Origin: Arthrobacter sp. AQ5-05
Lineage (GTDB): Bacteria > Actinomycetota > Actinomycetes > Actinomycetales > Micrococcaceae
Length of the DNA stretch: 64,000 nt
NCBI RefSeq assembly: GCF_003287975.1
Contig: NZ_QMKQ01000010.1
Coordinates: forward strand, 1 to 64,000
Direction of reading: 5' to 3'
The position numbers and the translations under genes were made by a program. Every line of letters starts with the position of its first letter. Position 1 is the first letter of the stretch. This document shows, in pieces, positions 16,376 through 37,778 of this stretch. The notes beneath the pieces are model-generated. The model worked only from the letters and a program-made list of their open reading frames with translations. It did no database searches and was not told where the DNA came from.

Positions 16376-16786
16376 TCAGGGCTTCGTGCCCCGGGCCGCC
16401 AGCGCCCCGGCCAGGGACCCGAACGAGGAGAAGTCCTTGTGCCCGGCTTCGCCCCAGACCACCAGGACGCGCAGCACGCCGTCCCCGGTGTTGCGCAGAT
16501 CGTGCTCCACGCCGGCCGGGGCCAGGACGCTGTCCCCGGCACGCAGCTGGTGGTGCTCGGCCCCGACCTGCATCCGCGCGGTGCCCTCGAGCACCAGGTA
16601 GAACTCCTCCAGCGCGATCGTTTCCGGGTCGTGGGAGTGCATGCCCTCGTGTCCCCCGGGGTCCAGTTCCCAGGTCTGGATGGCCACCGGCATGGCCATG
16701 GAGTCGGCAAAGTGGAATTGCATGCGCGTCGGCGTGCCTTCGTGCAGCGAGTAGTCGAAGGTGTGCGCACCACGTGGTTCAAACAT
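16376..16786 (-). CDS. Cupin-domain protein
   Basis: A 136-residue single-domain cupin. Motif 1 supplies His50, His52 and a downstream glutamate (residues 50-61, HSHDPETIALEEFY). Motif 2 supplies His95 (PAGVEHDLRN). These are a typical metal-binding set. It lies 15 bp downstream of the iclR-family gene and probably ends the operon that starts with the MHS transporter and creatinase. Such small cupins can be isomerases, dioxygenases or sensor proteins; no function can be assigned from sequence alone. Confidence 0.8.
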   Translation of the reverse strand: MFEPRGAHTFDYSLHEGTPTRMQFHFADSMAMPVAIQTWELDPGGHEGMHSHDPETIALEEFYLVLEGTARMQVGAEHHQLRAGDSVLAPAGVEHDLRNTGDGVLRVLVVWGEAGHKDFSSFGSLAGALAARGTKP

Positions 16787-17647: not shown

Positions 17648-18109
17648 CTACTGCGCCTCGTCGACGCCGATGTCTTCGTTCCACAGTCCCGGGTTCCGGG
17701 TGGTGAACTCTTCCATCAGTGCGGTGGCCCGGGGATCGTCGATGACCACGACCTCCACGCCGCGGGACCGCAGCAGCTCGAGTTCCCCGGGGAAGGTCCT
17801 CTCCTCCCCGACCACGACACGCCGGATGCCGAAGAGGATGATCGATCCGGAGCACATGGCGCAGGGCGCCAGCGTGGAATACAGGGTGGTCCCGGCGTAG
17901 GAGGCACGGCGTCCGGCATTGCGCAGCGCATCGATTTCCGCGTGCGCCGTCGGATCCCCGTTTTGCACGCGGCGGTTGCGCCCGGCCCCCAGCATCACGC
18001 CGTTCTCGAAGATGCTCGATCCGATGGGCACCCCGCCCTCGCCTGCACCCAGACGGGCTTGTTCAAGGGCGGTGGCGTATCCGGCGCGGTCGTGTTCGTC
18101 CAGGATCAT
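17648..18109 (-). CDS. Cytosine/creatinine-deaminase-like zinc deaminase
   Basis: A 153-residue member of the small CDA-fold deaminases. The zinc site is intact: His56 and Glu58 (HAE) and Cys83/Cys86 (PCAMC). The segment TTLYSTLAPCAMC is typical of yeast-type cytosine deaminases and related nucleobase deaminases. The chosen ATG at 18109 gives a compact protein; the frame can be extended to 18184. It lies 103 bp downstream of creatinase 1, beyond a stem-loop, and before the iclR gene. Some deaminases of this kind act on creatinine, giving N-methylhydantoin. A creatinine deaminase role is therefore attractive by context but not shown by any residue. Confidence 0.8.
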   Translation of the reverse strand: MILDEHDRAGYATALEQARLGAGEGGVPIGSSIFENGVMLGAGRNRRVQNGDPTAHAEIDALRNAGRRASYAGTTLYSTLAPCAMCSGSIILFGIRRVVVGEERTFPGELELLRSRGVEVVVIDDPRATALMEEFTTRNPGLWNEDIGVDEAQ

Positions 18110-18157
18110 GGCGTGGGGCTCGATTCTTCGTCGGATGCAGAAATGACTGCGTAGCGG

Positions 18158-19429
18158 AAAGGGCGGTGGGGTGCACGCATGCATCCCACCGCCCCATCAT
18201 GCCAGTTCGAGGCTAGGCATCGATGATGTTGTTCTCCGGGCCGAAGCCGAACTTGGTGATGTTCTCCACGCCGCCGTCCTCGCCGATGACCAGGATGTCG
18301 TGCTCGCGGTAGCCACCGGCACCCGGCTCGCCGTCGGCGATGGTGACCATCGGCTCCATGGAGACCACCATGCCCGGCTCCAGGACCGTGTCGATGTCCT
18401 CGCGCAGCTCCAGGCCCGCCTCGCGGCCGTAGTAGTGCGAGAGCACGCCGAAGGAGTGGCCGTAGCCGAAGGTGCGGTTGGGCAGCAGTCCGTGGCCGAT
18501 GAAGATCTCGTTGAGCTCCGCGGCGATGTCCTTGCAGACCGCTCCGGGCTTGATCAGTTCCAGGCCGCGCTTGTGCACCTCGACGTTGGCGTTCCACACC
18601 TGCAGCGAGCGGGCATCGGGCTCGCCGAGGAACAAGGTGCGCTCCAGGGCGGTGTAGTAACCGCTGGTCATCGGGAAGCAGTTCAGCGAGAGGATGTCCC
18701 CGCGCTCCAGCTTGCGGGTGGTGGCCCAGTTGTGGGCACCGTCGGTGTTGATGCCGGACTGGAACCAGACCCAGGTGTCGCGCACCTCGCGGTGCGGGAA
18801 GGTCTTGGCGATCTCGTGGACCATGGCCTCGGTGCCGATCAGGGCCACCTCGTACTCGGTGATGCCTTCGCGGATGGCTGCCTTGATGGCCTCGCCGCCG
18901 AGGTCGCCGATGCGGGCGCCGTGCTTGATGACCTCGATCTCTTCGGCGGACTTGATCATGCGCTGGCGCATGGCATCCTGCGAGACATCGACCAGGGTCG
19001 CGCCGTCGAAGGTGGCGGCGATGGCCTGGCGGGTCAGCAGCGGCAGGGCGTCGTCTTCGACGCCGAGGCGCGCGGCCTTCACGCCGTTGCGCTTCAGGGC
19101 CTCCTGCAGGCCGTAGTAGAAGTTGTCGCGCTTCCAGTCGGTGTAGACGATGTTGTCGCCGTAGCTGGTGCGCCACGGCATGCCGGCGTCGATGTTCGCG
19201 GTGATGGTGGTCGAGCTGTCGGCGGTGACCACCAGTGCGTAGTTGCGGCCGAAGGTGGTGTAGAGGAAATCGGAGTAGTACTTGATGCCGTGGTAGCTGG
19301 TCAGGATGACCGCGTCGAGTTCCTTGGCGGCCATGATCCGGCGCAGGCCGGAAAGGCGGCGCTCGAACTCGGCGTCGGAGAAGGTCAGCTGCTGCTTGGT
19401 GCCGTTGTGCAGGGTCTTGAGGCGCTCAA
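18158..19429. repeat. Near-identical repeat, copy 1 (creatinase 1 and its terminator)
   Basis: Aligned base by base with 22478-23749 (constant offset 4320), this segment differs at only about a dozen positions, most of them near its ends. From 18544 to 19376 (833 bp) I see no difference. Identity stops abruptly beyond 19429, where the creatinase N-termini and the flanking transporter genes diverge visibly. Confidence 0.9.
18161..18194 (-). terminator. Stem-loop after creatinase 1
   Basis: GGGCGGTGGG at 18161-18170 pairs perfectly with CCCACCGCCC at 18185-18194 around a 14-nt loop. It starts 19 bp after the creatinase 1 stop codon. There is no U-tract, as often seen in high-GC actinobacteria. 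It may attenuate read-through into the deaminase and iclR genes. The same hairpin follows creatinase 2. Confidence 0.75.
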
Positions 19430-19469
19430 GCTCGGAAACGTTGGTTGCATTGGCCGGGGTATCGGTCAT
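18213..19469 (-). CDS. Creatinase (creatine amidinohydrolase), copy 1
   Basis: A 418-residue creatinase hydrolysing creatine to sarcosine and urea. It has the two-domain pita-bread fold without a metal site. His246 (NTDGAHN) and Glu276 (YTALERT) occupy the positions of the catalytic His232 and Glu262 of the Pseudomonas enzyme, and Glu372 (SMEP) that of Glu358, all with a constant offset of 14. The gene lies 61 bp downstream of an MHS-type transporter and before a deaminase gene, an iclR gene and a cupin gene. A second copy at 22533-23789 is almost identical except for the first 15 or so codons. Expression probably depends on the operator upstream of the transporter. Confidence 0.96.
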   Translation of the reverse strand: MTDTPANATNVSELERLKTLHNGTKQQLTFSDAEFERRLSGLRRIMAAKELDAVILTSYHGIKYYSDFLYTTFGRNYALVVTADSSTTITANIDAGMPWRTSYGDNIVYTDWKRDNFYYGLQEALKRNGVKAARLGVEDDALPLLTRQAIAATFDGATLVDVSQDAMRQRMIKSAEEIEVIKHGARIGDLGGEAIKAAIREGITEYEVALIGTEAMVHEIAKTFPHREVRDTWVWFQSGINTDGAHNWATTRKLERGDILSLNCFPMTSGYYTALERTLFLGEPDARSLQVWNANVEVHKRGLELIKPGAVCKDIAAELNEIFIGHGLLPNRTFGYGHSFGVLSHYYGREAGLELREDIDTVLEPGMVVSMEPMVTIADGEPGAGGYREHDILVIGEDGGVENITKFGFGPENNIIDA

Positions 19470-19530
19470 GATGGTGTCCTTATGGCTGGGGCATTGCGGG
19501 GTGGGTGGATATGCGAATGGGTGCCGGCCG

Positions 19531-20931
19531 TCAGGCCAGGGCCTTCTTGCTGGTTTCCGCCGAGAGCGCCACGGCGACCAGCGAGATCACTGCGGCGGCC
19601 ATCAAGTACCAGGCAGGAGCCAGGACGCTGCCAGAGGTGGCGATCAGCACGGTGGCCACGAACGGGGCGGTGCCGCCGAACAGGGCGTTGGAGAGGTTGA
19701 AGGACACGGCGAACCCGGTGTAGCGGACCCTGGTGGGGAACATCTCGGCCAGGTAGCTCGGCAGCGTGCCGTCGTTGAGGGTGAGCATGCCTCCAAGCAG
19801 GATCTGCACGAGCACGATGACCAGGAAGTTGCCGGTGTCCAGAAGCATGAAAGCAGGAACCGTGAGCACCACGAAGGAGATCGAGGCGCTCAAGAGGACC
19901 TTTTTGCGTCCGAAGTGGTCCGAGAGCATGCCGGTGAGGAAAATGAAGCCGATGTAGGTCGTCAGGGCCACGGTGGTCGCCACGTAGGATGCGGTTTCGT
20001 CCAAGCCCAGTTCCTGGGACAGGTAGGTGGGCATGTAGCTGAGGATGACGTAGAAGCCCACCGCGTTCAGCAACACCGCGCCGACCGCCTGGATGAGCTG
20101 GCGCCAGTGGTTCGTGAACAGCGTCTTGACGGGTGCCTTGATGACATTGTCTTCATTGGCAAGTTCCTTGAAAACCGGGGAATCCTCAAGCTTGGTCCGG
20201 ATATAGCGACCGATCAGGCCCATGGGTGCTGCCAGCAGGAACGGCAGTCGCCAGCCCCACGACTGCATTTGCTCGGCATCCAACAATCCGGTCAAGAGCG
20301 CCGCGAGCAGTGAGCCCAGCAACAGGCCGGTGGCGGTGCTGGCCGGAACCACTGCCGCGTAGAGGCCGCGGCGGTTGGCCGGGGCGTATTCGACCAGGAA
20401 GGCCGAAGCCCCCGCATATTCCCCGGAAGCCGAAAATCCTTGGACCACGCGGATGATCAGCAGCAGGATCGGGGCCCAGACGCCGATGGTGTCGTAGGAA
20501 GGGATCAAGGCGATGCAGAACGTGGCCATCGACATGATCAGGATCGACCAAGACAAAGCTGTTCGACGACCGATCTTGTCACCCAGGTGCCCCCAGACGA
20601 ATCCACCCAACGGACGGACGAAGAAAGAGACAGCGAAAAGAGCGAAGGTGAGCATCAAGCCGGTGGCCGGGTCGGAGTCGGGGAAGAAGACCGCGGTGAT
20701 GGTGACCGCCAGGTAGCCGTAGACCGCATAGTCGAACCACTCGACGAAGTTGCCGATGAAGCTTGCGGCGATGACCTTTTGACGGGTCTTCTTGCCGACC
20801 CCGCCGGGGTGGGGACGTTCCTGGCCGCTGAGCGTGGGGCCCAGGTCCACACCCCTTCTTGCTGCGTGCGAGGTCGCACCGGCATGCTTCTCGGGAAATT
20901 CGCCGGTTGGAGTGTTGTTGCTCTGATTCAT
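19531..20931 (-). CDS. MHS-type MFS transporter, copy 1 (probable creatine uptake)
   Basis: A 466-residue MFS protein of the metabolite:H+ symporter subfamily, with about 12 helices. The subfamily run ASFIGNFVEWFDYAVYGYLA opens helix 1 and motif A is GHLGDKIGRR. The ATG at 20931 follows a TCTGGTGGT site that is also found before copy 2. The gene precedes creatinase 1 in the same operon, so creatine or a related guanidino compound is the likely substrate. It aligns along its whole length with the protein of 23849-25228 but has many substitutions, in contrast to the near-identical creatinases. A three-half-site operator lies 26 bp upstream. Confidence 0.9.
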   Translation of the reverse strand: MNQSNNTPTGEFPEKHAGATSHAARRGVDLGPTLSGQERPHPGGVGKKTRQKVIAASFIGNFVEWFDYAVYGYLAVTITAVFFPDSDPATGLMLTFALFAVSFFVRPLGGFVWGHLGDKIGRRTALSWSILIMSMATFCIALIPSYDTIGVWAPILLLIIRVVQGFSASGEYAGASAFLVEYAPANRRGLYAAVVPASTATGLLLGSLLAALLTGLLDAEQMQSWGWRLPFLLAAPMGLIGRYIRTKLEDSPVFKELANEDNVIKAPVKTLFTNHWRQLIQAVGAVLLNAVGFYVILSYMPTYLSQELGLDETASYVATTVALTTYIGFIFLTGMLSDHFGRKKVLLSASISFVVLTVPAFMLLDTGNFLVIVLVQILLGGMLTLNDGTLPSYLAEMFPTRVRYTGFAVSFNLSNALFGGTAPFVATVLIATSGSVLAPAWYLMAAAVISLVAVALSAETSKKALA

Positions 20932-20956: not shown

Positions 20957-20982
20957 GTTGCACTGATTGCAACTCGATTGCA
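20957..20982. promoter_or_regulatory. Three-half-site operator, site 1
   Basis: GTTGCA (20957-20962), N5, TGCAAC (20968-20973), N3, ATTGCA (20977-20982). The first two form a perfect palindrome and the third is a direct repeat 20 bp from the first. Identical spacing occurs at 25255-25280 and 29313-29338. It lies just downstream of the predicted -10 box of the transporter-creatinase operon, a position suited to repression. Confidence 0.8.
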
Positions 20983-20984
20983 CT

Positions 20985-21014
20985 AGTATCTCCGTGTGAC
21001 GGTCCTCACGTCAA
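20985..21014 (-). promoter_or_regulatory. Promoter of transporter-creatinase operon 1
   Basis: On the minus strand, -35 TTGACG (21014-21009), an 18-bp spacer and -10 GATACT (20990-20985). The expected start site falls in the adjoining three-half-site operator. Confidence 0.55.
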
Positions 21015-21399
21015 GCTTTTACGTGGGCATCTTTCCAGAAACGCCCCCACCCAAACAAGCAGCCTCCGATACCCGCCCAACCCCCGGTCGCGTCCGAGGA
21101 CCCTGACGCAGACCTGCCCGCTCATTTCGGCTCCAATGCTGCGCACGGGAGGCTTCACTGCAGTGCCGGCACCATCACCGGATGGATAGACCGGTACCCG
21201 CACGCCACGAGGGCGCCGAGGACGCGTTGCCGCGGGGCGTCCGGGGAATTCCAGACTTCCCGCCAGGGTATCCGTGTCGTCGGCCGATCCGATAAGGACG
21301 GTGGACGGTGGGGACCGGGACCAGCCATGCGGCTCCCAGTGCCCAGGCAGAAAGTAACTCGGTGAACCAGTGTCGTCCGAGGCAGACCCTGCCCGATGA

Positions 21400-21810
21400 G
21401 GCCGGGATCGGCTTCGGCCTCCGCAGGCACCCGGCCTTCGTGGGATCAAATGGCCAGGCAGGTGGCGGCCGTGACGACGCCGAAGCCCTTCATCCCAGGC
21501 AGCGGTGCGGCCTCGATGACCTTGACCGGTTCGGTGATCCGCGTGTTGTTGCCGGCCAGGTCCTTGTCGAGCTCACCGATCCGCTTCGCCAGCCGGACGA
21601 CTTCGGCACTGGCCACCGAGAGCACCGGCTCCTCGTCGCGGGCACGCCACCGGGACACCTCGGCAATCTGCGCGGCGCTCAGGGCCTCGCAGGCGTCCAG
21701 GCCAGGCTCGTTGAGACGTACCAGCGCGGTCAACGCATTCACATCCCAGGTGAGTTCATTGGTCATCGAATCAAGTACAGGCACCAAGGACCGCACCAAC
21801 GTCGCCAGCC
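21400..21810 (-). pseudogene. IS110-family transposase remnant
   Basis: On the minus strand a frame of the central and C-terminal IS110 type can be read, with IAEVSRWRARDE, SAEVVRLAKRIGELDKDLAG and KGFGVVTAATCLAI. An in-frame TGA sits where IS110 enzymes have tryptophan (CL.W.SH). It is followed by SHEGRV, and the frame then decays. The N-terminal DEDD catalytic domain and intact element ends are not recognisable. The rest of 20983-22477 shows no other recognisable gene. The remnant lies between the two creatinase-transporter units and may mark the rearrangement that duplicated them. Confidence 0.75.
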
Positions 21811-22477
21811 TGCCGTGGGCGGCGCAATTGCTTGATATCCAGCGGGAGCACGCCCCGACGGCCCCTGGGCATCGATTTCGACTTGTTCGACGCCGGGGTA
21901 CGTCCGGGCATCCATACATGCCGCCTTGAAGACCGGGCACCCCTCGGAGGCCACGGCACCGGCGAGGGCCGTAGGAGCCTAACTCTTCGATCCGGCGCGC
22001 AGCGAAGGCGGGGACGGTGCGCGGGACGCCCAGTCAGCGGCGCGGCTGGTTCCGGCGCTGGAGGCGGGGAACCACTTGGTGTCGATGAGCTCACCGGAGC
22101 AGGCCGCGAACATGGCGCAGAGGTGGCTGCGTGCAAGCATGTGAACGCCCACGGGAAACCCATGAGGAAGCGCGACGATGGGCCGACAGACCACTCGACC
22201 GCACCTCTTCAATGAGATGGCCATGGCCGCTGTCGGCCGGCTTCAGCGCTGGTAGTGGTTGCTTCGGAAAAATACTGTGACGAGCTCACCCCCCGGGGGA
22301 AGGCCAATCTCCCGGTCGGGCCTCACAGCGGTTGATGTTCCTCGGCGCGGGGTTCAGGCCCCGGCATCCTTCCCGTCCCAATTCGAGTTGACGAGGTTGC
22401 CATTGGACAGGAGTTGAATCATCTTCTGCGTCAAAGGACTTTCGCCTGCAAGCAAATTCCCATGCCGGGCGCATGGC

Positions 22478-23749
22478 AAAGGGCGGTGGGTTGCACGCAT
22501 GCATCCCACCGCCCCATCATGCCAGTTCGAGGCTAGGCATCGATGATGTTGTTCTCCGGGCCGAAGCCGAACTTGGTGATGTTCTCCACGCCGCCGTCCT
22601 CGCCGATGACCAGGATGTCGTGCTCGCGGTAGCCACCGGCACCCGGCTCGCCGTCGGCGATGGTGACCATCGGCTCCATGGAGACCACCATGCCCGGCTC
22701 CAGGACCGTGTCGATGTCCTCGCGCAGCTCCAGGCCCGCCTCGCGGCCGTAGTAGTGCGAGAGCACTCCGAAGGAGTGGCCGTAGCCGAAGGTGCGGTTG
22801 GGCAGCAGGCCGTGCCCGATGAAGATCTCATTGAGCTCCGCGGCGATGTCCTTGCAGACCGCACCGGGCTTGATCAGTTCCAGGCCGCGCTTGTGCACCT
22901 CGACGTTGGCGTTCCACACCTGCAGCGAGCGGGCATCGGGCTCGCCGAGGAACAAGGTGCGCTCCAGGGCGGTGTAGTAACCGCTGGTCATCGGGAAGCA
23001 GTTCAGCGAGAGGATGTCCCCGCGCTCCAGCTTGCGGGTGGTGGCCCAGTTGTGGGCACCGTCGGTGTTGATGCCGGACTGGAACCAGACCCAGGTGTCG
23101 CGCACCTCGCGGTGCGGGAAGGTCTTGGCGATCTCGTGGACCATGGCCTCGGTGCCGATCAGGGCCACCTCGTACTCGGTGATGCCTTCGCGGATGGCTG
23201 CCTTGATGGCCTCGCCGCCGAGGTCGCCGATGCGGGCGCCGTGCTTGATGACCTCGATCTCTTCGGCGGACTTGATCATGCGCTGGCGCATGGCATCCTG
23301 CGAGACATCGACCAGGGTCGCGCCGTCGAAGGTGGCGGCGATGGCCTGGCGGGTCAGCAGCGGCAGGGCGTCGTCTTCGACGCCGAGGCGCGCGGCCTTC
23401 ACGCCGTTGCGCTTCAGGGCCTCCTGCAGGCCGTAGTAGAAGTTGTCGCGCTTCCAGTCGGTGTAGACGATGTTGTCGCCGTAGCTGGTGCGCCACGGCA
23501 TGCCGGCGTCGATGTTCGCGGTGATGGTGGTCGAGCTGTCGGCGGTGACCACCAGTGCGTAGTTGCGGCCGAAGGTGGTGTAGAGGAAATCGGAGTAGTA
23601 CTTGATGCCGTGGTAGCTGGTCAGGATGACCGCGTCGAGTTCCTTGGCGGCCATGATCCGGCGCAGGCCGGAAAGGCGGCGCTCGAACTCGGCGTCCGAG
23701 AAGGTCAGCTGCTGCTTGGTGCCGTTGTGCAGGGTCTTCAGGCGCTCGA
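22478..23749. repeat. Near-identical repeat, copy 2 (creatinase 2 and its terminator)
   Basis: Partner of 18158-19429 in direct orientation. It contains the shared hairpin and nearly all of creatinase 2. Differences are clustered at both ends, and the middle 833 bp shows none. Confidence 0.9.
22481..22514 (-). terminator. Stem-loop after creatinase 2
   Basis: The same 10-bp GGGCGGTGGG/CCCACCGCCC stem with a 14-nt loop as after creatinase 1, starting 19 bp after the stop codon. The loop differs by one base from copy 1. Confidence 0.75.
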
Positions 23750-23789
23750 GCTCGGAAATCTGGGTTGCGCCAGCGGTGGTGTTCGACAT
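22533..23789 (-). CDS. Creatinase (creatine amidinohydrolase), copy 2
   Basis: A 418-residue creatinase with all active-site residues of copy 1 (His246, Glu276, Glu372). The proteins differ essentially only in the first 15 or so residues (MSNTTAGATQ here against MTDTPANATN in copy 1). The ATG at 23789 is supported by the divergence point and by an AAGGAGTC ribosome site. It lies 59 bp downstream of the second MHS-type transporter gene and ends in a hairpin; unlike copy 1, no further gene follows. Both copies look functional. The duplicate may raise dosage, or be tied to a transporter with different affinity. Confidence 0.96.
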   Translation of the reverse strand: MSNTTAGATQISELERLKTLHNGTKQQLTFSDAEFERRLSGLRRIMAAKELDAVILTSYHGIKYYSDFLYTTFGRNYALVVTADSSTTITANIDAGMPWRTSYGDNIVYTDWKRDNFYYGLQEALKRNGVKAARLGVEDDALPLLTRQAIAATFDGATLVDVSQDAMRQRMIKSAEEIEVIKHGARIGDLGGEAIKAAIREGITEYEVALIGTEAMVHEIAKTFPHREVRDTWVWFQSGINTDGAHNWATTRKLERGDILSLNCFPMTSGYYTALERTLFLGEPDARSLQVWNANVEVHKRGLELIKPGAVCKDIAAELNEIFIGHGLLPNRTFGYGHSFGVLSHYYGREAGLELREDIDTVLEPGMVVSMEPMVTIADGEPGAGGYREHDILVIGEDGGVENITKFGFGPENNIIDA

Positions 23790-23848
23790 GTTTGACTCCT
23801 TGGATGAGTTTTTTGTGATTGTTGTTTGGGAAGGAAGTTTGGTGTGGC

Positions 23849-25228
23849 CTAGGCCAGTGGCTTCTTGCTGGTTTCCGCCGAGAGCGCCACGGCGACCAGG
23901 GAGATCACTGCGGCCGCCATGAGGTACCAGCCGGGGGCCAGCAGGGATCCGGAGGTGGCGATCAGCACGGTGGCCACGAACGGGGCGGTGCCGCCGAACA
24001 GCGCGTTGGAGAGGTTGAAGGACACGGCGAACCCGGAGTAGCGGACCCGGGTCGGGAACATCTCGGCCAGATAGCTGGGCAGGGTGCCGTCGTTGAGGCT
24101 GAGCATGCCTCCAAGCAGGATCTGCACGAACACGATGACCAGGAAGTTGCCGGTGTCCAGCAGCATGAAAGCCGGAACCGTGAGCAGCACGAAGAGGATC
24201 GACGCCGTCATCAACACCTTCTTGCGGCCGTACTTGTCCGAAAGCATGCCGGTGACGAAGATGAAGCCGATGTAGGTGGCCAGGGCCACGGTGGTCGCCG
24301 CATAGGAGGCCGCCTCCGCCAGACCGAGCTCCTTCGACAGGTAGGTGGGCATGTAGCTGAGGATGACGTAGAAACCCACCGCGTTCAGCAACACCGCGCC
24401 GATAGCCTGGATGAGCTGGCGCCAATGGTTCTTGAACAGCGAGCTTACCGGGGTCGCCTCGGCCGTCTCCTGCTTCGCCAGCTCGGTGAAGACCGGAGAT
24501 TCCTCGAGCCTGGTGCGGATGTAGCGGCCGATCAGGCCCATGGGAGCGGCCAGCAGGAACGGCAGCCGCCAGCCCCACGATTCCATCTGCCCCGCATCCA
24601 GCAAACCGGTAAGCACTGCAGCCATGAGCGAGCCCAGCAACAGGCCCGTGGCGGTGCTGGCCGGGACGACGGCGGCGTAGAGGCCGCGTCGGTTGGCCGG
24701 GGCGTATTCGACCAGGAAGGCCGTGGCGCCGGCGTATTCGCCCGACGCGGAGAAGCCCTGGACGACGCGGATGATCAGCAGCAGGATCGGGGCCCAGATG
24801 CCGATGGTGTTGTAGGAAGGGATGAAGGCCATGCAAAATGTTGCGGCCGACATGATCAGGATCGACCAGGAAAGCGCTTCGCGCCGCCCGATCTTGTCTC
24901 CCAGGTGTCCCCAGACGAATCCGCCCAGCGGGCGGACGAAGAACGACACCGCGAAGAGCGCGAAAGTGAGCATCAAGCCCGTCGTCGGGTCGGACTCGGG
25001 GAAGAAGACCGCAGTGATGGTGACAGCGAGGTAACCGTAGACCGCATAGTCGAACCATTCCACGAAATTGCCGATGAAGCTTGCGGCAACGACCTTGTTG
25101 CGCGTCTTGCTGTCGATGCCGGCGGGACCCGGTCCGCCCGATTGGAGTCCCGAGTCGATGGTGAGCGTACTCGTGGCAGAATCCGCGTGGACACCACTGC
25201 CGCCCGCGGAGTTTTTGCGCTGAATCAT
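23849..25228 (-). CDS. MHS-type MFS transporter, copy 2 (probable creatine uptake)
   Basis: A protein of 459 residues with 12 helices and the same MHS signatures as copy 1 (FIGNFVEWFDYAVYGYLA, GHLGDKIGRR). The ATG at 25228 is preceded by TCTGGTGGTT, matching copy 1; an upstream in-frame start at 25312 would fall inside the promoter. The two transporters keep long identical helices but have many substitutions in loops and the N-terminal tail. They have diverged far more than the creatinases next to them. Substrate: creatine or a related compound, by context. Transcription probably starts at the TTGACA/TACAGT promoter under the second three-half-site operator. Confidence 0.9.
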   Translation of the reverse strand: MIQRKNSAGGSGVHADSATSTLTIDSGLQSGGPGPAGIDSKTRNKVVAASFIGNFVEWFDYAVYGYLAVTITAVFFPESDPTTGLMLTFALFAVSFFVRPLGGFVWGHLGDKIGRREALSWSILIMSAATFCMAFIPSYNTIGIWAPILLLIIRVVQGFSASGEYAGATAFLVEYAPANRRGLYAAVVPASTATGLLLGSLMAAVLTGLLDAGQMESWGWRLPFLLAAPMGLIGRYIRTRLEESPVFTELAKQETAEATPVSSLFKNHWRQLIQAIGAVLLNAVGFYVILSYMPTYLSKELGLAEAASYAATTVALATYIGFIFVTGMLSDKYGRKKVLMTASILFVLLTVPAFMLLDTGNFLVIVFVQILLGGMLSLNDGTLPSYLAEMFPTRVRYSGFAVSFNLSNALFGGTAPFVATVLIATSGSLLAPGWYLMAAAVISLVAVALSAETSKKPLA

Positions 25229-25254
25229 TTTTGAACCACCAGAAATGTTTTTGA

Positions 25255-25280
25255 GTTGCATTGCCTGCAACGCCGTTGCA
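25255..25280. promoter_or_regulatory. Three-half-site operator, site 2
   Basis: GTTGCA (25255-25260), N5, TGCAAC (25266-25271), N3, GTTGCA (25275-25280). All three half-sites match the consensus exactly. It lies 27 bp upstream of transporter copy 2, at the same place relative to the start codon and promoter as site 1. Confidence 0.85.
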
Positions 25281-25283
25281 CCA

Positions 25284-25312
25284 ACTGTATTTGTGCCCTG
25301 CATCACTGTCAA
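25284..25312 (-). promoter_or_regulatory. Promoter of transporter-creatinase operon 2
   Basis: On the minus strand, -35 TTGACA (25312-25307), a 17-bp spacer and -10 TACAGT (25289-25284). This is close to the housekeeping sigma consensus. The transcription start should fall in operator site 2. Confidence 0.7.
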
Positions 25313-26619
25313 GGGCTTCGACCTCCTCGCGTCACACTCACTTCACGAAGGGGTCCAGCGCACCACCAGGCCCACCGCGACCGGACCCCGGGTAAATGCA
25401 TCGCGGGGAACGCGCCCCACTGCCCGGAGCCGAGTTGACCGATACCCTGGACCCAAGATGGTCAACACCGGGACGACCCCTGATCAGGGACAATGAGGCT
25501 CGCCGCGGCTACGGCGTCCGACTGAAAAAGGCAGCGTCCCCGACGAATAGCATCTTCGCGCCTGGCCCAACCAAGGAAGCTGCCGGCCCCGGTCGCCACG
25601 ACATGCAGAAATGCCTCCCAGGGTCGTCACGCAAGGACCCGGCACAACAACATAGGCCTGCCTCTGCGGCCGCGAGCGCTTGCAAAGCCCGCGACGGACC
25701 GACGGGACACCTAATGACAAGTGACGGGAAAGACATTGTCATCGGGCAGGTCAGAAAAGTTCCGATTCACGCCCGGCTCATGTGGGTCACCCCTGGCAGC
25801 CAGCTCCACGCTTGCCACAACCATTAGAAAAAATTACGGGCACGGGATTCGTTGCGGGGAAACCCCGGATGCGATCCCGGCCACCCAGGCGGCTACCCGT
25901 CCGATCGCAGGCACATGTTCTGCAGCTTCCAGGGTCGTGGCTACCCTGCACTGAGGGGCTCGCCACAGGGTATAAAGTCAATACCATCGTGGCGTCGCGA
26001 AAATCCTGCCGTCGCTCCCGCAGCAGGGTAGCCCGTGCCAGACACTCCCGTCGCCCCCTTGGGCCGGGCAAGCGCAGCGGACAGTGTCCCACCTATCCCC
26101 TCCAAGGCCATGAAGAGAGACGCTCTCGAAGGCGAAATCGATTCCGGGGCGCGGCAGGACACGCCGAATCCGGCGGACACACTCAGCAACATGGCTGCAA
26201 CAGCCCCACGGTCCGCGCCTGCCTTGGGCCTTGCCTTGGGTTGTTTCCACTTGCCCAGCCGCGCTTCCGGGTCGCCCAGTACGGTGGGCCTGCAACCGCG
26301 GTTCTCCGTCCACTGGAGCTCCCAACCCAACGGCCACATGCTGGCCGCGATGCATTCCAACCTGTCGATGCCGGGCACCTGCCCCTTTCTGCCGGAACAA
26401 TCCCCGGCCTGCAAACACTCAGGAGAGAGGCTCTCCGGAATGAGCGCGGTGTGCCGCCTGCGACTTCTGGTGCGCAGGGTGGACCTGGACCACGCCGCCG
26501 TACTTGGCATGGGCTACCGCTCGATCGAGCTACGGCATCCGGTCACGGTAAATGCAAATGATTCCTCATGCTGGTTCCCTGCGGCCAACCGGGTGCCAGC
26601 CCAGCGGATGCAGTGCACG
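25313..26619. other. Gene-poor stretch without recognisable genes
   Basis: About 1.3 kb between the transporter 2 promoter and the terminator after the BCCT gene. The open frames present on both strands have no family signature, no convincing ribosome site and unusual composition rich in Arg/Pro/Ser/Cys. I see no intact gene. It may be decayed DNA left by rearrangement. Confidence 0.6.
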
Positions 26620-26668
26620 CCGAAGGCCCCGGCGGACCGCAGGATCTGCGGTCCGCCGGGGCCTTCGG
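26620..26668 (-). terminator. Long perfect hairpin after the BCCT gene
   Basis: A perfect 22-bp stem (left arm 26620-26641, right arm 26647-26668) with a 5-nt loop lies 26 bp downstream of the BCCT stop codon. There is no T-run. The strength of the stem suggests an intrinsic, possibly bidirectional, terminator for the creatininase-BCCT operon. Confidence 0.8.
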
Positions 26669-26694
26669 CACCCTCTTAGCGAGAAATGCTGCGG

Positions 26695-28437
26695 TTAGCC
26701 GCGCCCGGAAGGATCCGTCTCCGACGCGACCCCTGGCCCCGATTCGCTGACCAGCACGGCCTCCCCGCTGGGCAGGAATTCCACGCGCTTGGTCGGGCTG
26801 GGATCGTTGACTTCCTTTTCCAGCCGCCGGATGCTCTTGTCTCGCTTGATGAGCCGGCGGATGAGATTGGCAATCATCAACAAGATCACGAAGGAGAACG
26901 GGAAGGCACCGATGATGGTGCCGGTTTGCACCGTGTCGACCACCGCGGTTCCGCCCAGCGTCAGCAGGACGATGGTGACAGCGGCGATGCTGGCCACCAA
27001 GACCACACGGAACCCCGGACCGGATTTCTTGGGCGAGGAGACGAATTCCGCCAACGCGTAGGTACCCGAGTCCAAGGAGGTTACATAGTAGGTGGCCACC
27101 AGGACCGTGGCCACCACCAGCAGCAGGCCACCGACCACGGGGATGGACTGGAGCATCACGAACAGCCCGCTGGAGGTCTCCTCTGCCACCGAGGAGGAAA
27201 CTCCCCCGCCGGACTTGTCATCGTAGTAGATGGCAGAGGACCCGATCACTCCGATCCAGATCATCACGATCAGCGACGGAATCACTGTCACGCCGATGAC
27301 GAATTCGCGGATCGTGCGCCCGCGGGAAATACGGGCAATGAATCCAGCCACGAACGGCGAGAAGGCGATGACCCAGCACCAGATGAATACGGTCCACCAG
27401 CCGTTCCAGCTGTCCTGCCAGGATTCCAGCGGTTGGGCCGTGGTCGAAACGTCGGTCCAGAAGCTCATCGGGATGAAGTTGGTAAAGAACGAGCCGAAGG
27501 TCTGGGACAGGTTGGAGATGATGAACAACGTCGGGCCGAAGACGAACACGGCTATGACCAGCACGATGCTGAGAATCGAGTTGGTTTCACTGACGCGTCG
27601 CATGCCCTTGTTGATGCCGAAGAATGCCGAGACCGCGGTCAGCGAACCCAAAGCGAGGATCACGATCAGCCAGGTCACCGGGCTGGAAACCAGGCCAGTG
27701 AACGAAGTGATTCCGGAGCTGAATTGCATGGCGGCGAACCCGAAGGAGGTTGCCAGGCCCAGCACCGTGGCGATGATCGCCAGCAATTCCACGATAACAC
27801 CGGCACCGCGCTGCGCCCACTTGGGCAGGATGTCGACAGTTGCCTCGCGGAACGTCAGGGTCTTGCCCAGGTTATGGTGCGAGTAGGCCAGGCAGACCGC
27901 CACCACGCAGTACATGGCCCAGGCGGTGAGTCCCCAGTGGAAGTAGGACCAGACCATGGCGCCTTCTGCCGGGCCCGCGTCACCGACGGGAATGACGGGG
28001 TTCTCCTCGCGAAGCATGATCGGCTCGGCCACCGACCAGAAAATCAGGCCAATGCCCTGCCCGCAAGCGAAGAGCATGGAATACCAAGCGAACTTGCTGT
28101 GCTCCGGCTTGGATTTCGGTCCCCCCAGACGGATCTTGCCGACCCGGCTGGTGGCGAGCCAGATGCATACAACTACCGCAATGACCGAATACAGGATGAA
28201 CAGCCAGGTGAACTTGCCGGTGACAAAGGTGCGCATGTCGGAGATGACGTTTGCCGCGCCCTCGGGATTGAGTATCACCAAAAGGATCACCACGGCAATC
28301 AGCACCGGCGGGATGATCTTGATGAGCAGCCGGTCCACCGACGGAATGTTCCTCCCCATGAACCTCGGGACCTCAACGGGATCTGGCGCCACCTTGTTTT
28401 GCTGGACCCGGGTGTCGTTTGGGTTGTCGACCGACAT
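26695..28437 (-). CDS. BCCT-family transporter (probable creatinine/betaine-type uptake)
   Basis: A 580-residue transporter with about 12 helices. BCCT signatures are present: FWSVAEPI, SYFHWGLTAWAMY, and the tryptophan-rich segment WWTVFIWCWVIAFSPFVAG followed by FIARISRGRTIREF. BCCT proteins move betaine, carnitine or choline with Na+ or H+, or by exchange. The ATG at 28437 shares its A with the creatininase stop (TGATG), and GGAGGTGA lies just upstream, so translation is coupled. Co-expression with creatininase suggests creatinine, creatine or glycine betaine as substrate. A charged C-terminal tail of about 60 residues is present. Confidence 0.92.
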   Translation of the reverse strand: MSVDNPNDTRVQQNKVAPDPVEVPRFMGRNIPSVDRLLIKIIPPVLIAVVILLVILNPEGAANVISDMRTFVTGKFTWLFILYSVIAVVVCIWLATSRVGKIRLGGPKSKPEHSKFAWYSMLFACGQGIGLIFWSVAEPIMLREENPVIPVGDAGPAEGAMVWSYFHWGLTAWAMYCVVAVCLAYSHHNLGKTLTFREATVDILPKWAQRGAGVIVELLAIIATVLGLATSFGFAAMQFSSGITSFTGLVSSPVTWLIVILALGSLTAVSAFFGINKGMRRVSETNSILSIVLVIAVFVFGPTLFIISNLSQTFGSFFTNFIPMSFWTDVSTTAQPLESWQDSWNGWWTVFIWCWVIAFSPFVAGFIARISRGRTIREFVIGVTVIPSLIVMIWIGVIGSSAIYYDDKSGGGVSSSVAEETSSGLFVMLQSIPVVGGLLLVVATVLVATYYVTSLDSGTYALAEFVSSPKKSGPGFRVVLVASIAAVTIVLLTLGGTAVVDTVQTGTIIGAFPFSFVILLMIANLIRRLIKRDKSIRRLEKEVNDPSPTKRVEFLPSGEAVLVSESGPGVASETDPSGRG

Positions 28438-29231
28438 CACTTCACCTCCAGTGCTGCCACGGGCAGCGAGTATTCGGCTTCGATGGCGCGAGCCACGCCA
28501 TTGACGACTGCATCTAGCAAGAGCTGTCCGCGTTCGGCACTGGCACCCACCGGCGATGACAGGCATCCGCTGTCCGGGGTGCGTGCGGGATCTTCGGGGA
28601 AGATGTCATAGGGTTTTAGCTGCGCCGGCGGATGGCTCAGGGCACGGGACATATCGACTTTCTCCGGGTGTAGCAGCAACATCAGTGAAGTCTCCAGGAC
28701 GCCCCCGTGCTCGATGTCCCAGCCAAGGAACCCGTCGGGGAAGACCCTCTCCAGGGTGCCCTCGTCAACGAAGTCCCAATAGGACAGCAGCATCGCACGC
28801 GCCTCGGAACCCGATTCCCGGGCACGGCCAACGGCGATCTCCAGGCCCTCATAAATGAACTGGTAGTTCTCGAAGTGTCCGTTGAGGATCACCACGTTGT
28901 TGAATCCCTGACCCATGAACGACCGGGAAATGTCCTCGACCTGGCCCGTGACGGTGGCCCCGCTCAGGCTCGTGGTGCCGATCCGGTGGTTTCCGCCTCC
29001 GGAGCGCGGTTGCGACTTGTAACCGTAGGCCAGCGTCGGGGCAACCAAAGCCCCCAGCCTCGTGGCGACGGCACCGGCAATCGCGCGCGAAAGCATCGCG
29101 TCGACACCCAGCGGCATGTGCGGCCCGTGCTGCTCCGTGGCTCCCGCGGGAATGATCACCGTGGCGTGGGATTGCGCCAGATAGTTTGCATAGCTCTCCG
29201 CATCAATCTCTTCCAGAAAGACCGATCTCAT
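28437..29231 (-). CDS. Creatininase (creatinine amidohydrolase)
   Basis: A 264-residue creatininase-family enzyme that opens creatinine to creatine. The metal ligands of the Pseudomonas enzyme are all found with an offset of one: Glu33 and His35 (EQHGPH), Asp44, His119 and Glu121 (NGHFEN). Trp171 and the Glu174-His175 pair (WDIEHGG) match the flap and active-site region. Close relatives in other pathways act on other amides, but the two creatinases and sarcosine oxidase nearby make creatinine the natural substrate. It is the first gene of a two-gene operon with the BCCT transporter. The third three-half-site operator lies 82 bp upstream. Confidence 0.93.
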   Translation of the reverse strand: MRSVFLEEIDAESYANYLAQSHATVIIPAGATEQHGPHMPLGVDAMLSRAIAGAVATRLGALVAPTLAYGYKSQPRSGGGNHRIGTTSLSGATVTGQVEDISRSFMGQGFNNVVILNGHFENYQFIYEGLEIAVGRARESGSEARAMLLSYWDFVDEGTLERVFPDGFLGWDIEHGGVLETSLMLLLHPEKVDMSRALSHPPAQLKPYDIFPEDPARTPDSGCLSSPVGASAERGQLLLDAVVNGVARAIEAEYSLPVAALEVK

Positions 29232-29312
29232 CTAGTGCTCCTTGCATTCGTGGGAGGAGGCGATTCCCTGTCGGATCACCCGATGTTCCGTGCTTGAGGC
29301 CTTCGCCAAGTA

Positions 29313-29338
29313 GTTGCAGTTAACGCAACTTCGTTGCA
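29313..29338. promoter_or_regulatory. Three-half-site operator, site 3
   Basis: GTTGCA (29313-29318), N5, CGCAAC (29324-29329), N3, GTTGCA (29333-29338). Spacing is identical to sites 1 and 2, with one base changed in the middle half-site. It lies upstream of creatininase and links that operon to the two creatinase operons. Confidence 0.8.
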
Positions 29339-29339
29339 T

Positions 29340-29370
29340 ATATCATGACAGTGACCTGGCTCACGGTCAA
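29340..29370 (-). promoter_or_regulatory. Possible promoter of creatininase-BCCT operon
   Basis: On the minus strand, -35 TTGACC (29370-29365), a 19-bp spacer and -10 TGATAT (29345-29340), directly before operator site 3. The spacer is long, so the -10 assignment is tentative. The -35 region shares a TTGAC-N-GTGA-like start with the other two regulated promoters. Confidence 0.4.
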
Positions 29371-29486: not shown

Positions 29487-31088
29487 CTAATGGTCGGTCT
29501 TGTGCCTGTCTAGTGGGGGCATCTCAGCAGGAGGCAAGTCTCCGGTCGCCGCCACGTCACCGATGCGCTGTTCGGCAAGCAAAAACTCGGCGCTACCGTG
29601 CTCACGGATGAATTGCGCGTCGGAGTAGTCCAGTTTCAGCCCCAAAGGCACACCTTGCTCGATGCGCGTGTTGAATCGACCGTATCCCAGTGCGTAGTAG
29701 ATGCCCGCACTGGTGGCGGTGCCCGCCAGCCAGGAGAAGTCGATCCCGCCAACCGCTGTTGCAATGGGGCCCTGCAGCTCCGGAATCGAACCGTACATGC
29801 ACATCCAGGTCATGAAGATGCCGCCGGCGAAGGCAAGGAACGCCGCGGGGTTAAAGGCCTTGAGCTTCGTCGACTTCGGGTCAAGGAAGAGGTAGGAGAA
29901 GTCCTTGTGGCGCCTCTCAAAGACGAAGTAGTGCACAGCCATGATTCCGCCCCACGTGGCCACCCAGGCGGCAATCGCAATGATCCAGTTGTGCAGGACC
30001 TCAGCGAAGTCGGTAGCGAAAAGGAAGGCAATGACCGCGGCCATGGACAAGACCCCGACGGCAATGGACAGCTTCTTGCGGGAGACATTGATGTCGAGGG
30101 CCTGTGTGGCGACGCCAAAGGTGTACATATTGATGATGTTGGTGGCGATTGGTCCGTGGATGACCAAGAGAATCACCGGTATGGATAGGGTCCCGAAGCT
30201 TTCAACAATCAGCTGCCCTGGATCGGCGGTGCCGTTCTTGGTGGCAAGGCTGGCGCCAAGGATCCCCAGCCACACAACGGGGAGGAACTGCCCCAAGACG
30301 CTGACAATGTAGAGTTTGTGCGGCTTGATGCGCTTGGAAACGAAACGGGAGTAATCCGGAGCGTAGGTGAACCAGCCGATCCCCCAGCCGATTCCAATAG
30401 CGGTCATGATCGAGGACATCGCCGCGATGCGCGGCATGCCGGTGAGCACTTCGCCGACCGGGCCCTGGTAGCTCCAATCGATATCCAGCTGCGTCCAAGC
30501 GAGGATCGACATGGCAATCAATACAATGATGGTTGGTGGCATCGTGATGCGTTCGAAGCGGGCGATGGCCTTGTAGCCACGGTAGCAAATCGCCACCTGG
30601 ATGCTCATGATGACTGCCGCGGTGGCAATGCGCCAGCCGATGTTGCTGGCCGTAGGATCGACCCATCCGATCATGCCAAACAGTGCCATGATCAAGTCGA
30701 GGATGACCCAGGTGTTGACCGCCGACCAGCCAATGGCTATGACCGCCTGGATGGCGGCCGGCAGGTACGCGCCCCTTCGGCCGAATGCGCCTCGTGCCAG
30801 CAACATTCCGGTTGCGCCGGTCTTCTGGCCCAAGATGACGAAGAAGCCGAAGCCCAGCATGCCAATCACGTTGCCGGCAATCAGGACCGTCAATGTGTCG
30901 GCGAGGCCCAAGCCTAGGTGGATTCCTAGCGCCCCAAGGATCCAGTTGATGGGGGCAACGTTGGCCCCCGCCCAGATCCAAAACTGCCCGGACAGCTTGG
31001 TTGTTCTGGCGGACTCGGGAATCGGCTGCAGGGAGTCTTCGACTTCATGGGTCACCGCCTCTGACGAACTTGCTACATTTCTACTCAT
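29487..31088 (-). CDS. NCS1-family nucleobase/hydantoin-type permease
   Basis: A 533-residue NCS1 transporter with 12 helices. The start (FWIWAGANVAPINWILGALG) and the helix 3 region (GMLLARGAFGRRGAYLPA) are typical of CodB-like cytosine permeases and related hydantoin/allantoin carriers. Creatinine and N-methylhydantoin are structurally close to known NCS1 substrates, and the gene lies between creatininase and a divergent PucR regulator. Creatinine uptake is therefore a reasonable inference. It is monocistronic, followed by a strong hairpin. The upstream gap (31089-31233) has no three-half-site operator, so control is likely by PucR instead. Confidence 0.9.
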   Translation of the reverse strand: MSRNVASSSEAVTHEVEDSLQPIPESARTTKLSGQFWIWAGANVAPINWILGALGIHLGLGLADTLTVLIAGNVIGMLGFGFFVILGQKTGATGMLLARGAFGRRGAYLPAAIQAVIAIGWSAVNTWVILDLIMALFGMIGWVDPTASNIGWRIATAAVIMSIQVAICYRGYKAIARFERITMPPTIIVLIAMSILAWTQLDIDWSYQGPVGEVLTGMPRIAAMSSIMTAIGIGWGIGWFTYAPDYSRFVSKRIKPHKLYIVSVLGQFLPVVWLGILGASLATKNGTADPGQLIVESFGTLSIPVILLVIHGPIATNIINMYTFGVATQALDINVSRKKLSIAVGVLSMAAVIAFLFATDFAEVLHNWIIAIAAWVATWGGIMAVHYFVFERRHKDFSYLFLDPKSTKLKAFNPAAFLAFAGGIFMTWMCMYGSIPELQGPIATAVGGIDFSWLAGTATSAGIYYALGYGRFNTRIEQGVPLGLKLDYSDAQFIREHGSAEFLLAEQRIGDVAATGDLPPAEMPPLDRHKTDH

Positions 31089-31233
31089 TTGTTTGCTTTC
31101 TTGGCTGCGAGGGTACTACAGGAACCTACCCGTTAAGCGTAAAAGTGATCCGCGCCACCCCGTATACTCAAAATGTATATTTATCCGATTAAGAAAACGA
31201 CAGATCGTCATCGCCGGTCACGAGGAACCCTCC

Positions 31234-32736
31234 ATGCTGCTGAACCTCAAAGACATTCTGGCCACACCCCTGTTCCTGAAGGCCAGCCCGCGGGTCGTGG
31301 CGGGGGCAGCAAACGTCGAGACCAGCAAGGTCCGCTGGGTACACTCCAGCGAGGTTTTGGAAATCGCACCCCTGTTACGGGGGGAAGAGTTGCTACTCAG
31401 CGGCGGGCAGACGTTGCTGGCCCTTCGGCCCGAGGCGCAGATCCACTACGCGCGCAGTCTAGCGGAGCGGAACGTTGCCGCCTTGGTGGTAGAGATCGCT
31501 GACCCAAACAAGGCGCTGTCCCCCGAACTCATTCGAGCCGCCGATGATGCGGGGCTGCCGTTGATCGAACTCCGCGTCACGGTTCCCTTCGTCGAGTTGG
31601 CCGAGACCATCAACCGCGAAATCGTTTCTGCCCAGGCCATGGCGTTGCAGCGCGCCGACGCAATATCGCAGCAAATGGCACACCGGATTGCCACTTCGGG
31701 GCCCGACTTGGTTCCGCTCTTGGCGCTCATCGCCCAAAGGATGGAGGTAAACGCATCAATGGCAGATATGGAGGGCATCACTCTGGCAAGGAGTGGCGAC
31801 CTTCTGGAAGAAGAAACCGAAACAGAAGTCATAACAGACATCTATTTCGGCGATGTGGTCGCTGCGAGGCTTCACTTGCATGGACGGCACTCAACCGAAC
31901 AGGAGCTACTGGCCACGGTTGCCGAGCGTCTCGGAAGCATCCTGGCCCTGGCCCTGGCCCAGCACCACCGTCCGACCCGAACGCAAATTGCCGATTCGGC
32001 TCTCATGCAGGCCATTCTCCGCGATGCCGGGGCCCGCGAAATCAGGGATATGTGCGCGCAGGTTGGCCTTGAACCAGGCACGCCCGTGGCCATGCTGGTG
32101 TTTCGCGGCGTCGAACTTGGCCGGGTTCGCAGCGCGCTGGAACGCATCTTGCGGCGCAACAGCCCCTCCATCAAAACCTATCTCAACGCCGAACACCTCT
32201 ACGCCTTGGTCCCGGTCAAGGGCATCTCACCTGCCCAGGAGCGCCGAAGGATATTGGAGGGCATGCGCAAGGACGTCCTGCCCGTGGCCGTGCAGGGCAC
32301 CATGGGTCCGTGGGCAACGGATGCCACACAGGCATCTTGGTCATTGCGCGAGGCCTTGCTGACCGAACGGCTTGCGCTGCCAGTTCCGAGTACCGGCGTG
32401 CTTCGGGATTCTGAGGATGCCTGGTTGGAACGCCTCTGTGTGCGTGAACTGAAACCGAAGTACGCGGAACGCTATATCCGTGAAATCCTTGCGGACCTGA
32501 TCGCCCACGATGCGGTGCGTGGCGGCGACCTCGTAAAGACCCTCGATGCCTGGCTTACATCCGGCTGCAATTCCACCGCCACGGCAGCGTCCTTGTTCAT
32601 GGAGCGTCAGACGCTGCACAAACGTCTGACCAAGATTTTCGACCTCATGGGCGGTGACCCGCGCGGCTCGTCGCGCCTCGCGGCCTTGCATCTTGCAACT
32701 CGTCTGGCAACCATGAACCTGACAGCAGATAAGTAG
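31234..32736 (+). CDS. PucR-family transcriptional regulator
   Basis: A 500-residue protein with an N-terminal PucR-type domain (about 5-125, with LRGEELLLSGGQTLL and a VEIADP segment). A GGDEF-like or linker middle follows, and the C-terminal HTH_30 domain is near the end (about 430-490, TAASLFMERQTLHKRLTKI). The ATG at 31234 follows GAGGA by 8 nt; upstream in-frame codons lack a site. It is divergent from the NCS1 permease and probably activates it in response to a nucleobase-like ligand such as creatinine or methylhydantoin. It differs clearly from the other PucR protein at 4598-6160. Confidence 0.87.
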   Translation: MLLNLKDILATPLFLKASPRVVAGAANVETSKVRWVHSSEVLEIAPLLRGEELLLSGGQTLLALRPEAQIHYARSLAERNVAALVVEIADPNKALSPELIRAADDAGLPLIELRVTVPFVELAETINREIVSAQAMALQRADAISQQMAHRIATSGPDLVPLLALIAQRMEVNASMADMEGITLARSGDLLEEETETEVITDIYFGDVVAARLHLHGRHSTEQELLATVAERLGSILALALAQHHRPTRTQIADSALMQAILRDAGAREIRDMCAQVGLEPGTPVAMLVFRGVELGRVRSALERILRRNSPSIKTYLNAEHLYALVPVKGISPAQERRRILEGMRKDVLPVAVQGTMGPWATDATQASWSLREALLTERLALPVPSTGVLRDSEDAWLERLCVRELKPKYAERYIREILADLIAHDAVRGGDLVKTLDAWLTSGCNSTATAASLFMERQTLHKRLTKIFDLMGGDPRGSSRLAALHLATRLATMNLTADK

Positions 32737-35058: not shown

Positions 35059-35127
35059 GTGATTTTCTCCTTGCTGTCGCCGATCAACCTTAGTTCGACC
35101 GGCATGGCGACTCATTTCAGGCGGCTG

Positions 35128-35156
35128 TTGACACCGTGTGATCCTCATCATAACAT
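35128..35156 (+). promoter_or_regulatory. Promoter of the glyA-sox operon
   Basis: TTGACA (35128-35133), a 17-bp spacer and TAACAT (35151-35156), an almost ideal housekeeping promoter. The expected start is near 35163, about 50 nt upstream of glyA. Confidence 0.7.
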
Positions 35157-35168
35157 TGTGTGTAGTTC

Positions 35169-35178
35169 TGATATATCA
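35169..35178. promoter_or_regulatory. TGATATATCA palindrome (probable GntR operator)
   Basis: A perfect 10-bp palindrome just after the predicted start site of the glyA-sox promoter, in the gap shared with the divergent gntR gene. Its size and A/T centre suit FCD-type GntR repressors. Confidence 0.5.
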
Positions 35179-35215
35179 ATCAGCAACAACTTGTACTTCA
35201 AGGAGTGAATACTGG

Positions 35216-36538: not shown

Positions 36539-36542
36539 GAAC

Positions 36543-37760: not shown

Positions 37761-37778
37761 AAAGGGATCCACACAACC

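Follow-up and report, generated by a model that had tools for sequence, protein, structure and literature searches.

An IclR-family regulator and a three-box operator probably form a creatine/creatinine regulon in Arthrobacter sp. AQ5-05, with a probable sister regulon for a parallel creatinine branch

The first 64,000 nucleotides of contig NZ_QMKQ01000010.1 of Arthrobacter sp. AQ5-05 (RefSeq assembly GCF_003287975.1, forward strand), hereafter called the window, carry three copies of the 26-bp motif GTTGCA-N5-YGCAAC-N3-RTTGCA, one upstream of each of two creatinase operons and one upstream of a creatininase operon. This observation, made in a preliminary description of the DNA, is confirmed, and its interpretation in terms of an IclR-family regulator is supported by sequence comparison. 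The three sites are very probably the operators of the IclR protein encoded in the first creatinase operon, and the three units would thus form one regulon. Our main addition to the earlier observation is a sister regulon on another contig: two sister IclR proteins appear to divide two creatinine routes by a single base per half-site.

A pattern scan of the window returned exact matches with identical spacing at the three positions given in the preliminary description (Table 1). Boxes 1 and 2 of the motif form a palindrome, and box 3 is a lone half-site on the promoter side; the motif is spelled on the plus strand, and every target gene lies on the minus strand. With up to three mismatches allowed, the window contained six matches, three of which result from reading sites 1 and 2 out of register or in reverse, compared with a mean of 0.21 matches in 100 shuffled windows. 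The earlier remark that the motif had not been noticed elsewhere in the window extends to the whole genome: in all 4,647,352 bases (116 contigs), only the three window sites were found at up to two mismatches, so the motif does not occur at random frequency. At three mismatches, the eight further matches equalled the reversed-pattern control (5+3). A base-composition model predicts about 0.0002 exact operators per genome. As operons 1 and 2 partly duplicate each other, two of the three window sites are not fully independent; the spacers of their two operators differ.

The motif is conserved in relatives. Within the family, 153 of 395 genomes carry it at up to one mismatch, the genome of strain AQ5-05 included; the reversed-pattern control gave about 4 matches. 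In 30 three-kilobase loci from one genus (L077-L106), the gene at the site is an orthologue of the first-operon transporter (29 loci) or a creatinase (one locus). Forty motif-picked loci across genera (39 genomes) contained creatine genes in 38 cases and an IclR orthologue (45-98% identity) in 33. Among the seven loci without this regulator, L112, L113, L129 and L132 come from genomes that carry it elsewhere, and L136 is a 3-kb contig. These 40 loci, like the 20 loci of the sister motif and the 66 genomes considered below, were picked by hand among the longer sets of matches listed rather than sampled at random; no separate analysis covers the 3-kb loci L147-L173. Starting from the regulator instead, we found a site with at most two mismatches at 10 of 12 close IclR homologues (L063-L074), which come from Arthrobacter, Paeniglutamicibacter, Glutamicibacter, Zhihengliuella and a metagenome-assembled genome. 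Outside the family, exact sites were present in 2 of 183 genomes of the order, located before the transporter and before creatinase, and both genomes encode IclR orthologues of 55-57% identity.

The motif is closely linked to the IclR gene. Among the 66 genomes, which were chosen by motif status, an orthologue at least 52% identical was present in 28 of 30 motif-positive and in 6 of 36 motif-negative genomes (p = 1e-10, relatedness uncorrected). For creatinase, the corresponding numbers were 29 of 30 and 7 of 36. Five of the six motif-negative genomes with the regulator have sites with two or three mismatches upstream of creatine genes (before a neighbouring permease gene in one of them); in the sixth, the locus is truncated by the end of its contig. 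The window protein itself belongs to the IclR family, with scores of 50.5 bits for HTH_IclR and 99.6 bits for IclR_C, both over the Pfam cut-off; the closest PDB chain is the IclR_C domain 3obf (177 bits). Taken together, the comparison of genomes shows, at the level of sequence, the motif, its layout, its targets and its linkage to the regulator gene. The creatinase clusters of L201 and L202 have neither an IclR orthologue nor the operator.

We then considered the position of the operator relative to the promoter. The third box was scored as present with at least five of six bases. Of the 84 palindromes that precede creatine genes, 72 have it at N3 towards the promoter and 6 have it towards the gene; at any other offset from 0 to 15 it was found in at most 2% of the 84. 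Palindromes were dropped if no creatine-gene start lay within 400 bp downstream, if they were near a sequence end or if their context was identical to another, a filter that also loses some real sites (e.g., one each in L071 and L072). Because many of the 84 palindromes came from picks with the full motif, the count was repeated on named loci picked by their IclR gene, with the same result: all 19 have the N3 third box towards the promoter, the three window sites are arranged in the same way, and a gene-side box occurs in 0 of these 22. In an alignment of the 72 palindromes with a third box, half-sites are conserved and spacers variable. Numbered from the palindrome (0 to +16), TTGAC lies at -41, TAnnnT at -18 to -13 and the third box at -9 to -4; the spacing between the hexamers is mostly 17 bp, and the best -10-like element starts at -18 or -17 in 55 of 72 sites. 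The predicted promoters of the window, identified by eye from their consensus match, agree with this register within one base at all three operators. The preliminary description had located sites 1 and 2 just past the -10 box, which holds for both, except that this position is not limited to these two, as site 3 lies likewise. A transcription start is expected about 7 bases past the -10 box, within the third box, so that the operator would cover roughly -3 to +22. This placement over the predicted start fits repression, which we consider likely from the sequence. In L107, L109, L110, L128 and other loci, a second operator-like site lies about 120-145 bp from the first, upstream of the transporter.

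The genome search also revealed a related motif, GTTGCT-N5-AGCAAC-N3-GTTGCT (T-type), which occurs twice on contig C21. Both copies are located just upstream of genes for identical 270-amino-acid proteins that match N-carbamoylsarcosine amidohydrolase (CSHase; PDB 1nba, E 3e-172). On the same contig, about 135 bp ahead of an IclR gene, there is an exact GTTGCT palindrome whose third box is poor, and a palindrome with one mismatch lies just before an open reading frame with hydantoinase A and B domains. The IclR protein of C21 is 46% identical to that of the window and is its nearest relative among the 17 paralogues compared (of 38 HTH_IclR matches), the next one standing at about 29% and none of the others above about 30%. 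The T-type motif was found in 25 of the 395 family genomes, against 3 matches for the control. Among 20 T-type loci, CSHase was encoded in 17 and the sister IclR in 17; L187 and L192 have the hydantoinase only, and L193 none of the three. Of the 66 genomes, 13 encode CSHase, and these are the same 13 that have a 39-46% identical homologue of the window IclR, which we took as the sister type. The two CSHase genes of strain AQ5-05 (1513-2325 and 5529-6341 of L012) lie at a distance of about 4 kb from each other; both have an operator of their own, and a transposase is encoded nearby.

The two operator types differ at position 6 of the half-site. In 77 creatine sites, A or G occupies this position 76 times in box 1, 73 times in box 2 and 68 times in box 3; in 21 sites of the parallel branch (20 before CSHase and one before a sister IclR gene), T does so 21, 21 and 20 times. 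These sets exclude 43 sites for which no gene start in the opposite orientation lay within 300 bp, as well as repeats of the same sequence and gene. As most of these loci had been picked by the A or the T motif, more weight falls on 15 CSHase genes found without use of a motif: 11 have an exact T-type site, all of them at 90% identity or more, and position 6 is T in all of their boxes bar one third box. The remaining four genes, at 60-67% identity, have one site with two mismatches and three times none. The regulators form sister clades of 61 window-type and 27 sister-type sequences with supports of 0.93 and 0.96 (clade labels had been assigned by best BLAST score ahead of the tree). The tree was built from 64 window-type homologues, which gave the 61 tips after length and identity filters, and 27 sister-type homologues, all of which were retained; the window and C21 proteins are included. 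In the recognition helix, all 88 homologues share H48, K49, S50, S53 and R54 without exception. Three other positions (R27/E, T58/G and R72/G) nearly always distinguish the clades and are candidate determinants of the switch at position 6. The sister IclR probably governs the parallel creatinine branch, with CSHase and the hydantoinase as its likely targets. Therefore, the earlier proposal that the window IclR is a master regulator of creatinine use is retained as far as its link to the creatine operators is concerned (28 of 30 versus 6 of 36 genomes), but "creatinine use" is too broad a description for this genome.

In the mechanism that we propose, two IclR subunits would bind the GTTGCR-N5-YGCAAC palindrome and a further IclR dimer would engage the third half-site adjoining the -10 box. 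As long as no inducer is present, the bound regulator would cover about -3 to +22 and thereby block both transporter-creatinase operons as well as the creatininase-BCCT operon. A compound of the creatinine/creatine pathway would act as inducer by binding to the IclR_C domain, leading to the release of IclR. As its gene is part of an operon under its own control, the regulator would also be subject to autoregulation. The sister IclR would recognise operators of this layout in which half-site position 6 is T, and would act on the N-methylhydantoin/N-carbamoylsarcosine branch. Binding, stoichiometry, operon structure, start site, repression and induction are all elements that we infer.

The operators might be read by a different protein encoded nearby, namely the GntR/FCD regulator (34387-35151, by glyA-soxBDAG) or the PucR-type regulator (30601-32736), as a GntR orthologue is found in 20 and the PucR cluster in 10 of the 40 motif loci. 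IclR is present in 33 of them, however, and no motif with up to four mismatches lies beside either gene (33001-36000 and 30901-31300). Furthermore, two genomes from different genera, G030 and G017, encode a creatinase but no IclR orthologue, and both the GntR (71-76% identity) and the PucR-type regulator sit beside this creatinase; in the 20 kb around it, no motif was found at up to three mismatches (G017 counts as motif-positive solely through an unrelated site in L144). Two genomes are few, but because GntR and PucR are present there without the motif, we rejected them as readers, a role that is very improbable for either, and favour IclR. A single IclR could alternatively serve both operator types, with position 6 being neutral. 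The identical recognition-helix residues in both clades would agree with this, but we consider it unlikely in view of the A/G versus T split between the 77 creatine and 21 branch sites, the exact T-type sites at 11 of the 15 CSHase genes found motif-free, and the co-occurrence of sister-type IclR and CSHase in the same 13 of 66 genomes.

IclR could also bind these sites as an activator. The preliminary description had pointed to PcaU and PobR, which the title of a published study reportedly calls activators, as precedents for the arrangement of the sites. The layout of a palindrome plus a lone half-site is indeed common to them; the parallel is an architectural one only. Activator sites are usually located upstream of the -35 region, whereas the operator described here lies over the predicted start and follows the -35 and -10 hexamers, with the -10-like element at -18/-17 in 55 of 72 sites. 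Activation is thus decidedly unlikely. An element of the leader RNA, in which boxes 2 and 3 or boxes 1 and 2 would pair as alternative 6-bp hairpins, is extremely improbable. Two such mutually exclusive hairpins can be drawn, and there is a weak association between the inner palindrome bases (p = 0.015, in related sites). But the promoter-nearest box spans the predicted start and would thus be transcribed only in part, the remaining bases of the arms hardly vary among the 72 sites and hence provide no covariation in support of pairing, and the linkage to IclR would be left unexplained. We disfavour the hairpins and retain a repressing IclR as the preferred reading.

Several points weigh against this reading. 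The co-occurrence of motif and regulator could be explained by co-inheritance of the cluster alone, as only two genomes break the linkage. The transcription start is a predicted, consensus-based position. Two loci with a one-mismatch motif, L116 and L144, are without creatine genes, which is about chance level. Conversely, neither motif nor creatine genes were found in the stretch examined of L069 (IclR 81% identical, at a contig end), nor the motif in L067, where the contig is cut. Four more genomes of the genus from the other family have IclR homologues of 54-60% identity (two of them partial) and no exact site in a scan for exact matches only. The half-site deviates from the published GTTYCR: five of six bases agree, the exception being base 4, which reads G in 71 of 72 sites (counted in one palindrome arm). 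Finally, GTGA-N6-NCAC is found between -35 and -10 in 57 of the 72 aligned promoters, 15 of them with full TCAC, compared with a mean of 0.15 and a maximum of 2 in shuffled segments; as these promoters are related, the count is not one of independent events. This element, which we take to resemble a CRP/GlxR site, suggests an additional factor, for example a layer of carbon control.

Table 1. Operators, predicted promoters and genes of the proposed regulon (positions in the window)
Feature	Position	Strand	Details
Operator 1	20957-20982	+	Exact motif; boxes 20957-20962 and 20968-20973 (palindrome), 20977-20982 (third, promoter side)
Operator 2	25255-25280	+	Exact motif; boxes 25255-25260, 25266-25271, 25275-25280
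Operator 3	29313-29338	+	Exact motif; boxes 29313-29318, 29324-29329, 29333-29338
Predicted promoter 1	20985-21014	-	-35 TTGACG 21014-21009, -10 GATACT 20990-20985; by eye, consensus match
Predicted promoter 2	25284-25312	-	-35 TTGACA 25312-25307, -10 TACAGT 25289-25284; by eye
Predicted promoter 3	29342-29370	-	-35 TTGACC 29370-29365, -10 CATGAT 29347-29342; by eye; third box from 29338
GTGA-N6-TCAC, promoter 1	21009-20996	-	
GTGA-N6-GCAC, promoter 2	25306-25293	-	
GTGA-N6-TCAC, promoter 3	29364-29351	-	
MFS transporter 1	19531-20931	-	First gene of operon 1; orthologue behind motif in 29 of 30 loci (L077-L106, one genus)
Creatinase 1	18213-19469	-	Match to 1chm, E 9e-164
Cytidine-deaminase-like protein	17648-18184	-	Pfam dCMP_cyt_deam_1; start codon uncertain
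IclR-family regulator, 264 aa	16802-17596	-	Pfam HTH_IclR, IclR_C; proposed reader of all three operators
Cupin protein	16376-16786	-	Pfam Cupin_2
MFS transporter 2, 459 aa	23849-25228	-	First gene of operon 2; proposed start ATG 25228; 83.4% identical to transporter 1
Creatinase 2, 418 aa	22533-23789	-	98.6% identical to creatinase 1
Creatininase	28437-29231	-	NCBIfam TIGR04448, 334 bits (cut-off 235)
BCCT transporter	26695-28566	-	Pfam BCCT; downstream of creatininase; start uncertain (open reading frame overlaps creatininase)

Operon 1 comprises, in this order on the minus strand, the genes for the MFS transporter, creatinase, the cytidine-deaminase-like protein, IclR and the cupin protein, separated by gaps of 61, 28, 51 and 15 bp. 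Its transporter-creatinase unit is duplicated (18213-20931 and 22533-25228), with 91% nucleotide identity over 2.6 kb, and in operon 2 the creatinase gene is not followed by a deaminase, IclR or cupin gene. Site 3 lies upstream of the creatininase and BCCT transporter genes. In several relatives, too, the cytidine-deaminase-like gene lies close to creatine genes; its product might have a substrate such as creatinine or a compound related to it. Genes for serine hydroxymethyltransferase and sarcosine oxidase B, D, A and G are located at 35138-41606. Because the motif is absent from 33001-36000 at up to four mismatches, sarcosine oxidation seems to be outside the regulon. The PucR-type regulator gene stands beside a gene for a cytosine/purine-type permease (30601-32736) and the GntR/FCD regulator gene beside glyA-soxBDAG (34387-41606); the stretches between the genes of the PucR-permease pair and of the GntR-glyA pair contain no operator.

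The analysis provides a testable list of regulator, operator and targets for creatine/creatinine use in Micrococcaceae-type soil bacteria. Enzymes of the kind that break down creatinine and creatine serve, according to published abstracts, in clinical creatinine assays. The two sister regulators, alike in their key recognition-helix residues and with operators that differ by one base per half-site, offer a clean natural case of specificity separation between duplicated IclR proteins. The three-box layout also allows the published idea of two dimerization modes to be examined on natural promoters. More speculatively, the shared middle box might allow one regulator to bind in either of two registers, on the 17-bp palindrome or on the divergent pair at the start, with the inducer shifting it between them, and the change of position 6 from A/G to T after duplication might alone have insulated the sister regulators and divided the two creatinine routes between them; we regard this combination as a long shot.

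Regulation of creatine genes has been described for other systems, and in the open-access literature, supplements excluded, we found no report that ties an IclR protein to creatinase or to creatine control. Creatine use is described for Arthrobacter Rue61a with no IclR in the text consulted (PMC3534580), and the E. coli iclR treated in the consulted text of PMC9220930 is unrelated to creatine. In Corynebacterium glutamicum ATCC 14067, the creatine genes are controlled by AmtR (PMC8864220). According to the portions of that article used here, this too is transcriptional control of creatinine/creatine genes in an actinobacterium, but AmtR is a TetR-type central nitrogen regulator with a site different from the IclR operator. 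SoxR of Arthrobacter sp. TE1826 is likewise a local negative regulator linked to creatininase/creatinase genes; unlike IclR, it belongs to the LysR family and is described, in the consulted part of the source, for the monomeric sarcosine oxidase soxA (PMC4941409).

The nearest parallel concerns the operator. Suvorova and Gelfand (2021) defined a GTT-11-AAC subgroup of IclR regulators and predicted three-box sites for 32 orthologous groups, PcaU being the experimental case in the main text (PMC8222616). PcaU, PobR and HmgR are associated there with aromatic pathways, in contrast to the creatine genes and the operator over the predicted start described here, and the window IclR is not a member of the PcaR/PcaU/PobR subfamily (NCBIfam TIGR02431, 93 bits, cut-off 284.75). 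The targets are also different from those of the published three-box groups, as "creatin" and "Arthrobacter" are absent from the main text of that study. Its contact predictions, as far as positions could be matched via the TtgV table, did not explain base 4 or base 6. The geometry is the same: GTTGCA-N5-YGCAAC corresponds to GTT-N11-AAC, and the third box forms a divergent pair with 3-4 bases between the boxes, here N3. Thus, the creatine operators share with the published three-box sites both the 17-bp palindrome and a middle box common to the palindrome and the divergent N3 pair (PMC8222616, main text).

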